A stretch of 64,000 nt of DNA. It comes from an uncultured Dokdonia sp. Its GTDB lineage: Bacteria > Bacteroidota > Bacteroidia > Flavobacteriales > Flavobacteriaceae. Position numbers and translations under genes: made by a program. The stretch is taken from positions 372,001-436,000 of the forward strand of contig NZ_CANLNH010000002.1 in NCBI RefSeq assembly GCF_947492535.1, given 5' to 3'. Below are positions 39,646-41,783 of this stretch, piece after piece (position 1 is the first letter of the stretch; every line of letters begins with the position of its first letter). Below the pieces are notes generated by a model. It had not been told where the DNA came from and did not search any database. It was given only the letters and a program-made list of their open reading frames with translations.

Positions 39646-39660
39646 AATGTTATGTCTGTT

Positions 39661-39717
39661 CGAGCGCAGTCGAGAACTAAAATAATATGTTGTTTGTTGG
39701 CCTCTCGACTGCGCTCG
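39661..39717. repeat. Inverted repeat between hemD and hemE
   Basis: CGAGCGCAGTCGAGA (39661-39675) and its exact complement TCTCGACTGCGCTCG (39703-39717) flank a 27-bp AT-rich loop. It has the look of an interspersed flavobacterial intergenic repeat and could form a strong hairpin in the hem mRNA. Confidence 0.8.
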
Positions 39718-39742
39718 AGGGGACACATTTGTTTTGTTAAAC

Positions 39743-40864
39743 TTAACTAGTTAATTTTTTTAATGTATTTACCGCTTTTGCGATGGTACTTTCTATGGTT
39801 GTTGCATTAGATACAATCACTTGATTTGTGTATTTTCTTGCTTCGGTTGCTGTGGTTTCTCCAATGCAGAAAAACCTCACCCCCAGCCCCTCTCCTTGAG
39901 GAGAGGGTAGCTTTTTATTTGCACTAAAGTAACTTTGTACTCCACTGGGACTATAAAATAAAATTCCGTCAAACGCCTGATGAAATACCTGCTCATTTCT
40001 ATGAGTTTCATAAGTCACAATTTCGTTACAAGGAATCTTCGCTTGTTTTAAAATTGTAGGCAATTCGTCTCTACGTTGTTTACTACAGAAATACGTAAAA
40101 TGCTCGTTTTTATAGTTTTTTGCTATAAAATGTGCTAATTCTGCTCCATTTTGAGCTGTTTTGGCTACTTTATAACTGTTTTCTTCTAAAAGAGCCGTTG
40201 TTTTATTTCCAACGCAAAAACACCTCACCCCAGCCCTCTCCTCAAGGAGAGGGAGCTTTTTAATCACATTTAAAAATGCTTTAGCCCCGTTTTGACTTGT
40301 AATAATGACATTCTGAATATCTTTTGGAATCTCAAAATCGATGGGTTGTACAGAAATCGCATCATATTCCACAAAACTGACACCTGCATTGAGAAGGAGT
40401 TCTCGCTGGTTTGAGAGTAGTTTTTTTGTGGATAACACCCTCATCCCAACCTTCTCCCTCAAGGGAGAAGGAGCTTTTTCTCCTTTTCTTTTGATAATAT
40501 CATCATAAATAACTTGAATGCTTTCAAGAGCTATTTTATTTGGATAGCGTAGTACACGATATCCTAATCCTCTTAAATGAGTATCTCTAAGTTCATCCTT
40601 TTCTTTTTGATCTTTCTTATTGTGATATGCTCCATCAAGCTCTATGACAAGCATAATTTCTAGAGAACAAAAATCAACGATGTATTCTTTTATAGGATGT
40701 TGTCTTCTAAATTTAAGATTTTCAAATTGCCTGTTTCTTAGTAATTGCCATAGATGCTCCTCGGCAGGTGTTTGTTCCTGTCTTAAGTGCCGAGCGATAT
40801 CTTTTTTGGTAGCTTTTTTCATAATTTCCCTTCTCAGCGGGAGAAGGGTTAGGGATGAGGGCAT
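39743..40864 (-). CDS. hemD: DUF559 nuclease domain fused in frame to uroporphyrinogen-III synthase
   Basis: One open frame of 373 codons. Residues 15-125 are a DUF559 (VSR-like PD-(D/E)XK) domain: [49 protein letters not shown]. Residues 141-373 are HemD, which closes hydroxymethylbilane into uroporphyrinogen III. Three starts are possible: 40864 (3 bp after the hemC stop, probably the ancestral hemD ATG), 40822 (native DUF559 start) and 40444 (M141, HemD alone, 233 residues). HemD contains two repeat-derived insertions, [11 protein letters not shown] and [12 protein letters not shown], each just before a conserved FC[VI]G strand. Activity is expected because hemD is needed, but it should be tested. 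Confidence 0.85.
39875..39907 (-). repeat. GGGaTGAGG-type hairpin repeat, copy A (in hemD)
   Basis: CCTCACCCCCAG followed by the hairpin CCCTCTCC-TTGA-GGAGAGGG; encodes [10 protein letters not shown] in frame. Confidence 0.85.
40223..40253 (-). repeat. GGGaTGAGG-type hairpin repeat, copy B (in hemD)
   Basis: CCTCACCCCAG followed by CCCTCTCC-TCAA-GGAGAGGG; encodes LLEERAGVR in the same frame as copy A. Confidence 0.85.
40438..40861 (-). mobile_element. DUF559 cassette bounded by inverted hairpin repeats
   Basis: A 424-bp unit with copy C at the left (40438-40471) and inverted copy D at the right (40828-40861). Reading inward from both ends gives CCCTCATCCC(T)AACC(C)TTCTCCC, i.e. terminal inverted repeats, each with an internal hairpin (CCTTCTCCC-TCAA-GGGAGAAGG in C). 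The single gene inside is a DUF559 nuclease starting at 40822. The right end abuts the ATG 3 bp from the hemC stop, and the left end supplies ATGAGGGTG as the present hemD start, consistent with insertion at the old hemD start codon. Confidence 0.6.
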
Positions 40865-40865
40865 T

Positions 40866-41783
40866 TTACTTCTTATTCATAGATGCTTTAATCTCTTTCA
40901 TGAGTTCGCGGCCTCCATTGTCTAATATTTCTAATGCACAGTCTACACCAAATCCTTGACTATGCGATATGGAAATAGACTGATTAACTTCTAATTTTAT
41001 CTTACCATCTAGTGAAAATAAAACACCTGTAAAATGAATCGTTTCATTTTCTATGGTAGCACTAGCTCCTATAGGAGCAGTACATCCTCCTTCTAACGTT
41101 CGTAAAAATTCTCTTTCTATATAGGTGCACAAGGCGGTTGCTTTGTGGTTTAATTTCGCGCAAGCGGTTTTAGAAAAATCATCTTCTTCTAGTGCAACAA
41201 TAAGCATGGCTCCTTGTGCGGGTGCGGGTGTCATCCAGTCCAATACTTCATAATTAGATGGAAGGACATTAATGCGTTCTAATCCCGCTTTCGCGAAAAT
41301 AGCCCCTGTCCAATCACTATCTGCTAGTTTTTGAAGTCGTGTGTTTACATTCCCTCGTAGATCTGTTGTCGTATGAGAAGGATATTTATTAAGCCATTGT
41401 GCTTGACGACGTAAACTTCCTGTTGCAATTGTACAACGCTGTGTATAGTCAGGATTCCCTTTATGAACTAAGATATCTTGTGTAGCGGCTCTTTCTAATA
41501 CAGCTGCTTGAACGATACCGATAGGAAGGGCTGTGGGTACATCTTTCATACTATGCACAGCAATATCTACTGTGCCATTAAGCATTGCAACATCAAGTGT
41601 TTTTGTAAAAATACCCGTGATACCGAGTTCGTATAATGGTTTATCTAGTACGAGATCACCTGTAGATTTTACAGGAACTAGCTCTGTTTTATAACCGTGA
41701 TCTTCAAGTTGTTTTTGTACGGTTGTTGCTTGCCACAATGCGAGCTCACTATCACGAGTCCCGATGCGTATGACTTTATTCAC
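40866..41783 (-). CDS. hemC: Hydroxymethylbilane synthase (porphobilinogen deaminase)
   Basis: Polymerises four porphobilinogens into hydroxymethylbilane. 305 residues with RGNVNTRLQKL and the dipyrromethane-bearing Cys in LEGGCTAPIGA. It overlaps hemA by 8 bp. A palindrome copy at 41285-41298 is read as FAKAG in a conserved AILAKAGLERL-type segment, where the resemblance to family sequence may be natural. A diverged copy is near 41154. Confidence 0.97.
   Translation of the reverse strand: MNKVIRIGTRDSELALWQATTVQKQLEDHGYKTELVPVKSTGDLVLDKPLYELGITGIFTKTLDVAMLNGTVDIAVHSMKDVPTALPIGIVQAAVLERAATQDILVHKGNPDYTQRCTIATGSLRRQAQWLNKYPSHTTTDLRGNVNTRLQKLADSDWTGAIFAKAGLERINVLPSNYEVLDWMTPAPAQGAMLIVALEEDDFSKTACAKLNHKATALCTYIEREFLRTLEGGCTAPIGASATIENETIHFTGVLFSLDGKIKLEVNQSISISHSQGFGVDCALEILDNGGRELMKEIKASMNKK
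41285..41298. repeat. TTTCGCGAAA palindrome, one arm, in hemC
   Basis: CCGCTTTCGCGAAA, read on the minus strand as FAKAG. Confidence 0.85.

Follow-up and report, generated by a model that had tools for sequence, protein, structure and literature searches.

The 64,000-nucleotide stretch of an uncultured Dokdonia sp. analysed here (the window; NCBI RefSeq assembly GCF_947492535.1, contig NZ_CANLNH010000002.1, positions 372,001 to 436,000) contains a gene for a DUF559 nuclease placed between two inverted palindromes at the start of hemD. We propose, with a probability of roughly 0.7, that a DUF559 gene and two such palindromes constitute a mobile nuclease element that would enter host genes in frame without splicing. 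Mobility of this cassette is well supported by sequence comparison: the bounded structure appears at about half or more of the DUF559 loci and is spread over phyla, in-frame insertions and empty sites are both found, one site has undergone repeated independent changes, one cassette was transferred recently as a sharply bounded unit, and one genome holds multiple copies. We infer that DUF559 drives this movement and recognizes the palindrome; the DNA chemistry set out below is likewise proposed.

The hemD and leuS insertion sites

DUF559 and HemD domains recognized by Pfam lie in one frame of the window, with inverted hairpin repeats around the former (Table 1), which bears out the initial annotation of this locus as a DUF559 gene enclosed by such repeats at the hemD start; the two solo repeat copies that it had placed further inside hemD were found as well. 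On the plus strand from 40438, the inner palindrome reads CCCTCATCCC-AA-CCTTCTCCC-TCAA-GGGAGAAGG, and the inverted copy upstream of the likely DUF559 start finishes in GGGATGAGGG. The start codon assigned earlier, at 40822, gains support from three related genomes (G011, G007 and G015), where the frame is interrupted immediately 5' of this codon. Across the whole 4.86 Mb genome, a single pattern search, which may have missed diverged copies, gave 15 matches to the window repeat at up to three mismatches, compared with 8 for the reversed control pattern; six of these 15 are of the window-repeat type by eye, four at hemD and the others at C2:275846 and C14:50936. A different inverted palindrome pair (TTCGAGCGCAGTCGAGA / TCTCGACTGCGCTCGAGG) is present at 39659-39720, between hemD and a hemE-like frame, and by eye the leuS loops of G012, G015 and G017 hold a similar in-frame sequence.

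Table 1. Coordinates of the DUF559-hemD locus within the window
Feature	Position	Strand	Remarks
DUF559-HemD open frame	39743..40864	-	373 codons counted from first ATG; probable start codon (ATG) at 40822
DUF559 (PF04480) nuclease domain	40490..40807	-	frame residues 20-125; E, D, ExDG and H residues conserved; Pfam E 3.6e-33
Upstream (5') terminal palindrome	40828..40861	-	CCCTCATCCC head at outer edge and C-rich hairpin; inverted-repeat score 30
Downstream (3') terminal palindrome, inverted copy	40438..40471	+	translated within the fusion as 10 residues
HEM4 (uroporphyrinogen-III synthase, HemD) domain, host gene	39782..40402	-	Pfam E 1.4e-31
Solo repeat 1, in frame within hemD	40223..40253	+	10 residues; from sequence
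Solo repeat 2, in frame within hemD	39875..39907	+	12 residues; from sequence
hemC	40866..41783	-	stop codon adjoins cassette

Among 18 genomes of the same genus, the window genome (G000) included, hemC is followed by hemD in all 18. The insertion proposed in the initial annotation survives this comparison with related strains: the junction lacks DUF559 in 13 of the 18, where hemD starts at the hemC stop or up to about 45 bases after it and begins with M(T/P)VLSTKKL or a similar sequence. A DUF559 cassette stands in front of VLSTKKL or a close variant in the five filled genomes (G000, G011, G007, G015 and G012). In each of the five, the inner palindrome includes an initiation codon that shares the hemD frame (ATG in four, that of the window at 40444-40442, and GTG in one), so HemD could arise either as a fusion or from that codon. 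Solo repeat 1 is present by eye in G000, G011, G007 and G015, and absent from G012 and the 13 empty genomes; solo repeat 2 is absent from G011, the nearest relative of G000, and shortened or diverged in G007 and G015. One DUF559-free junction (L073 in G010) has another short palindrome (CTCGAGCATAGCGAGAG) within the hemC-hemD gap.

One of the six DUF559 genes of the window genome is in frame inside leuS, and DUF559 is present at the same loop in 6 of 30 leuS loci, immediately before (I/V)FTTRPDTIFG. On a tree of 16 genomes built from hemC and the leuS flanks (G005 and G007, having no leuS match, are absent), the five genomes with a filled leuS do not cluster; five changes are needed, and five are forced by well-supported branches. 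A KDH-type segment is kept in 8 of the 11 empty leuS genomes and missing from the filled alleles, which suggests that the cassette was gained rather than lost. The cassettes of G000 and G014 share 98.6% identity over 420 nt, and the leuS sequences on either side of them 86.7% and 87.9%. Beyond the left end the first base already differs, and beyond the right end the sixth is the first to do so, which indicates that the unit moved was the cassette itself. The leuS of G011, which is closer to G000 than G014 is, is empty; that of G009 is filled, and those of G008, G006 and G013, with flanks 94-96% identical, are empty. The leuS insert of G019 (L110) is diverged and has lost its palindromes and ExDG motif with the frame still open, and is possibly the fossil of an old insertion. 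Five other leuS loci of the 30 have short palindromic inserts in that loop, as judged by eye.

Inverted repeats around DUF559 genes

The pairing of inverted repeats was scored by comparing 300 bases on each side of DUF559, with a threshold of 30. Five of the six DUF559 genes of the window genome have paired inverted repeats (scores 29-35), of sequence types that differ by eye. Scores of 30 or more were obtained at 59 of 126 Bacteroidota loci, compared with 69 of 2493 mispaired flanks and 1 of 1000 random positions; at 43 of 79 named loci from several phyla (mispaired 160/1560, background 49/7621); and at 22 of 28 Gammaproteobacteria loci (mispaired 115/539, background 17/1862). High mispaired scores arise because many loci share one repeat type. 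With the threshold at 28, the named loci divide into Bacteroidota 23/43, Chloroflexota 8/10, Pseudomonadota 9/10, Cyanobacteriota 6/9 and remaining phyla 3/7. When loci of the same genome were compared, a locus matched its own partner repeat at 30 or more in 40 of 86 cases, and the repeat of another locus in 6 of 178. The enrichment of flanking inverted repeats at DUF559 genes elsewhere, anticipated in the initial annotation, is thus evident whether the comparison is with mispaired flanks, with other loci of the same genome or with random positions, with 67 of the 126 Bacteroidota loci scoring below 30. Similarity of DUF559 is correlated with similarity of the repeats (r 0.39 over 140 loci; 0/999 permutations as high), and removal of the closer pairs leaves 0/999, a test in which shared ancestry of the hosts remains.

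The three sets were drawn from 134, 80 and 29 loci after removal of those with short flanks or partial domains, and weak partial matches (L044-L048, L351-L360 and others) were excluded. The Bacteroidota loci include all listed matches with a frame of at least 250 and shorter ones down to about E 1e-28, apart from three, of which two lie at contig ends and the third contains a stop. The Gammaproteobacteria loci are the 29 strongest matches apart from the place of L243; some of the 28 scored have stops in DUF559, their flanks alone being scored. The named loci are the best 80 of 578, with phylum labels assigned from record titles, and are biased towards relatives of the closer alignment A2 because A2 served as the scan query.

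Some of the flanking repeats resemble the intrastrand triplex motif (TM_ECO, or PIT) that Holder et al. (2015, PMC4666352) tied to genome instability; they report 23 TM_ECO copies in E. coli K-12, intergenic only, and no mobility gene near the motif. The pattern searched was CCCTCNCCC N3-6 GGGNGAGGG N3 GGGNGAGGG, with the third spacer taken as 2-4. At up to two mismatches it occurs in either flank of 30 of 232 DUF559 loci (0/44, 4/82, 15/79 and 11/27 in the separate sets), compared with 0/500 and 2/190 background windows; in Gammaproteobacteria the comparison is 11 of 27 DUF559 loci against 2 of 190 distal controls. The set of 44, which includes the window locus, yields 5/44 at up to four mismatches. 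Repeats of the CCTCACCCC..CCTCTCC type were found in at least 23 of 78 Bacteroidota genomes with DUF559 and at least 8 of 70 without (Fisher p 0.008 among the matches listed, the relatedness of genomes being ignored). Within the DUF559-bearing genomes, 20 of the 101 listed matches lie no more than 3 kb from DUF559, where 0.45 would be expected. A survey of GTAG and CGTC palindromes (PMC3733652) makes no mention of DUF559 or triplexes in the portions retrieved by the words searched.

Contigs classed as viral (L305-L326) also carry DUF559, and inverted-repeat scores of at least 40 were obtained for 18 of the 20 whose flanks are long enough. In L317 (2492-2959) and L308, DUF559 lies between frames that by eye resemble those of a large terminase and a portal protein, as in phages or gene transfer agents, which are a possible vehicle. 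A row of several heads-outward palindrome doublets of about 120 bases each, similar to REPIN doublets, surrounds the DUF559 gene L005 (contig C11 of G000).

Host genes, lineages and the nuclease family

Insertion into host genes was assessed at 232 full-length open DUF559 loci, a set from which L347 (the same place as L240) and every locus whose domain contains a stop had been removed. At least 130 residues of other frame are present on both sides at 45 loci, on one side at 19 and on neither at 168; host-breaking insertions would resemble stand-alone genes because the search finds DUF559 through its own frame. All 24 of the two-sided loci scanned with Pfam, out of 45, contain another family besides DUF559. 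The hosts include LeuS, MetH, RecG, PheT, HsdR, HsdM, MetG, an M23 peptidase, type ISP, Eco57I-like and N6_N4 methylases, a type I specificity subunit, and others; terminal fusions by Pfam involve HemD, QueG, N-formylglutamate amidohydrolase and methylases. One scanned frame (L239) contains DUF559 only, and the remaining frames, a HisD fusion among them, were read by eye. The insertion sites adjoin very conserved host motifs. Pfam scans of 30 DUF559-bearing frames detected host families, DUF559 and related nuclease families, with no Hint/intein family (thresholds 1e-3 and 1e-5) and no transposase family. Genes of restriction-modification systems (HsdR, HsdM, HsdS, type ISP and Eco57I) are frequent hosts (L121, L123, L151, L155, L225, L271, L128, L256 and L240), and one HsdR loop is common by eye to Bacteroidota and a cyanobacterium.

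On a tree of 207 DUF559 domains (few columns, many weak forks; 11 host labels), the 45 domains labelled by host or site require 15 changes compared with 32.8 when shuffled, with 0/200 shuffles as low. The metH, recG, metG and hemD cassettes each lie on one side of a tree branch, and the leuS1 and hsdRb labels require two changes each (0/500 shuffles as low). The gammaproteobacterial genome G257 carries three cassettes on three contigs, pairwise 88.7%, 91.0% and 98.3% identical over 534-638 bases, and G135 carries two copies 85.5% identical. The three cassettes of G257 (L362, L363 and L335) adjoin a different repeat (GGTTTGTAACC / GGTTACAAACC) that recurs nearby, as though insertion had taken place within or next to another family of repeats; in one pair, another repeat lies beyond the shared stretch.

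A profile of 20 DUF559 domains matched 3hrl, a solved endonuclease-like protein (1e-33) that provides an existing structure for a close DUF559 relative; the 'Mobile intron protein' 3r3p (E 7.7e-6), corresponding to I-Bth0305I, which is the type enzyme for EDxHD homing endonucleases; and PvuRts1I, a weak match (about 1e-3). E21, D50, E61, D63, H67 and D76 are invariant across the 20 domains. By these matches, DUF559 is classified as an EDxHD/Vsr-type nuclease, and a DUF559 gene is assigned to EDxHD in PMC9403480 as well.

The proposed element and its relation to known systems

In the proposed mechanism, a DUF559 gene would move together with its inverted pair of C-rich palindromes of triplex type, the whole forming one mobile cassette about 0.4-0.6 kb in length. 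No other gene is seen in the unit, which makes the nuclease the natural agent of movement; most likely it recognizes its own palindrome type. It would cut DNA at the palindrome and/or a conserved target, upon which the cassette would be copied to new sites as a unit, with host repair needed for the joining step. Two modes fit. Re-insertion at one conserved site, as by homing genes, is suggested by the host lineages, the repeated changes and the kinship with homing enzymes, and would be the behaviour of the site-specific lineages (loops of LeuS, MetH, RecG, MetG and HsdR, and the hemD start); movement to new sites is suggested by the several copies within one genome, and other lineages stand alone between genes and can be present in multiple copies. 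The palindromes would be translated as short linkers rich in Pro/Ser/Gly/Arg or, in hemD, would give a start codon. Insertion in essential genes may be tolerated, and splicing unneeded, because the palindromes can be read through, lacking stops in the frame used and encoding short polar linkers, and because the insertion points are loops next to conserved motifs. Palindromes that occur singly or as doublets would be derivatives of a non-autonomous kind.

Several observations weigh against this proposal. No target-site duplication could be defined for the cassettes. One DUF559 gene of the window genome (L004, score 19) has no paired repeat, and the Bacteroidota loci below the threshold are noted above. 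A constant head orientation was sought across 214 loci and not found: of the 20 with a CCTCA(C/T)CCC-type head on both sides, seven have both heads outward, six both inward and seven are otherwise arranged, three of them direct instead of inverted. The CCTCACCCC..CCTCTCC type occurs, among the matches listed, in 8 of 70 DUF559-free Bacteroidota genomes, one with 22 copies; 81 of the 101 listed matches in DUF559 genomes lie more than 3 kb from any DUF559, as expected of solo elements; and E. coli, whose K-12 strain has the 23 TM_ECO copies mentioned above, is not among the 2 of 14 control genomes in which DUF559 was detected. Recent transfer is visible in only one filled leuS pair (G000-G014); in nine others the cassettes are 71-76% identical, below their flanks (79-86%), and probably reflect older events. 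In G257, homology extends past the palindromes into more inverted sequence, which makes the cassette ends inexact there, and in one copy of the three DUF559 is interrupted by a stop. Clustering by host is weak for leuS2 (two changes, 25/500 shuffles as low) and absent for the Eco57I_other, ISP, N6N4 and hsdM labels, and may in part be vertical descent.

Classical homing, in which DUF559 would cut the empty allele and host recombination would copy the cassette together with its flanks, the palindromes being incidental leftovers, is possible but doubtful; it overlaps the homing-like mode of the proposed element, and the likelihoods of the two are not exclusive. Kinship with a mobile-intron nuclease, host-specific lineages, the five changes at one leuS site and insertions beside very conserved motifs all agree with it. 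The one readable pair, G000-G014, has no flank conversion, several copies occupy separate places in G257 (a point weakened by the inexact ends there), and the paired palindromes co-vary with the enzyme. The same co-variation argues against fragile hot spots, where triplex palindromes would capture nearby DNA and DUF559 would be a repair-type nuclease found at breaks. Such hot spots would agree with the instability reported for the motif by Holder et al. and with the other short palindromic inserts in the leuS loop (5/30, by eye), but would predict neither mirror-image copies on both sides nor a unit that moves between leuS alleles with sharp ends, and we consider them unlikely.

Equally unlikely is a REP identity of the palindromes, in which RAYT (Y1) transposases would move them and DUF559 would be a passenger that inserts beside or between them. 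The palindrome-with-head architecture is REP-like, and Y1_Tnp genes, in a further point against the proposed element, are present in 17 of 22 other DUF559-bearing genomes; five of those 22 have none, the repeats at one locus pair with each other much more frequently than with repeats elsewhere in that genome's DUF559 loci, and repeat type tracks DUF559 sequence. For the window genome a RAYT mover was rejected, with 0 matches to PF01797 (Y1_Tnp). The suggestion in the initial annotation that DUF559 acts on its repeats as RAYT does on REP holds as an analogy, given the lack of Y1_Tnp/RAYT in the genome and the co-variation of repeat and DUF559; as a mechanism it is unproven. The in-frame insertions into other genes, the site-specific lineages, the kinship with homing endonucleases and the link to the triplex motif go beyond that annotation. 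Recruitment of DUF559 as a useful domain of HemD, LeuS, MetH and others, with the repeats as ordinary linkers or terminators, is very improbable. The fusions are open and nuclease residues are retained, and the diverged leuS insert of G019 persists without its ExDG motif and repeats, as recruitment would allow; against this, presence in leuS is patchy and unclustered on the tree, the many hosts are unrelated, 168 of 232 loci stand alone, and the cassette was transferred alone. A role of the hairpins as terminators would explain neither paired inversion nor in-frame insertion.

At even odds, we would extend the proposal of a mobile cassette to a widespread class of mobile elements defined by DUF559 and bounded by triplex-forming palindromes. 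Here the nuclease would mobilize the palindromes, be the missing source of bacterial triplex repeats, and enter essential genes unspliced by means of ends that act as linkers or start codons. A nuclease family that Pfam still lists under 'unknown function' would gain a role, and a mover would be proposed for the G/C-rich repeats of the intrastrand-triplex kind, the spread of which was left unexplained by Holder et al. In-frame entry into essential genes (LeuS, MetG, PheT and others) keeps the frame open with no splicing domain seen. The proposal yields concrete enzyme-substrate predictions, and the cassettes could mark permissive loops of essential enzymes.

Among known systems, the EDxHD homing endonucleases (I-Bth0305I, 3r3p) belong by profile match to the same nuclease superfamily as DUF559 and are likewise host-specific and patchy in conserved genes, whereas the DUF559 cassette has no intron or intein around it, has palindromic ends, lies in frame in essential bacterial genes and, in one pair, is without flank conversion. 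REP/REPIN elements with RAYT (TnpA_REP) share with it a small nuclease gene between inverted palindromes and dispersed solo copies, but the DUF559 cassette has an EDxHD/Vsr-type nuclease rather than a Y1 HUH enzyme and inserts in frame in genes. Rickettsia palindromic elements, like the cassette ends, are palindromes in frame within protein genes; to our knowledge they carry no gene and have no mobilizer. The DUF559 cassette resembles a homing gene in part and REP/RAYT in part, and fails a tested feature of each, because there is no flank conversion in the one readable pair and no Y1 gene in the window genome. TM_ECO/PIT, as described in PMC4666352, is like the repeats that flank a subset of DUF559 loci, except that here the motif can pair around DUF559 and lie inside genes. 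The closest published oddity found is the ShiLan domain (PMC11855218). It is, like the cassette, a patchy, non-splicing endonuclease insertion that leaves the host frame open, but it occurs in phage methylases and its HNH gene is hidden in a frame other than that of the host, whereas DUF559 is in the host frame, has palindromic ends and spans several bacterial phyla. The union of DUF559 with palindromes was not found among the open-licence papers listed, and may have been described elsewhere. DUF559, the triplex motif and the EDxHD nucleases are each already known.
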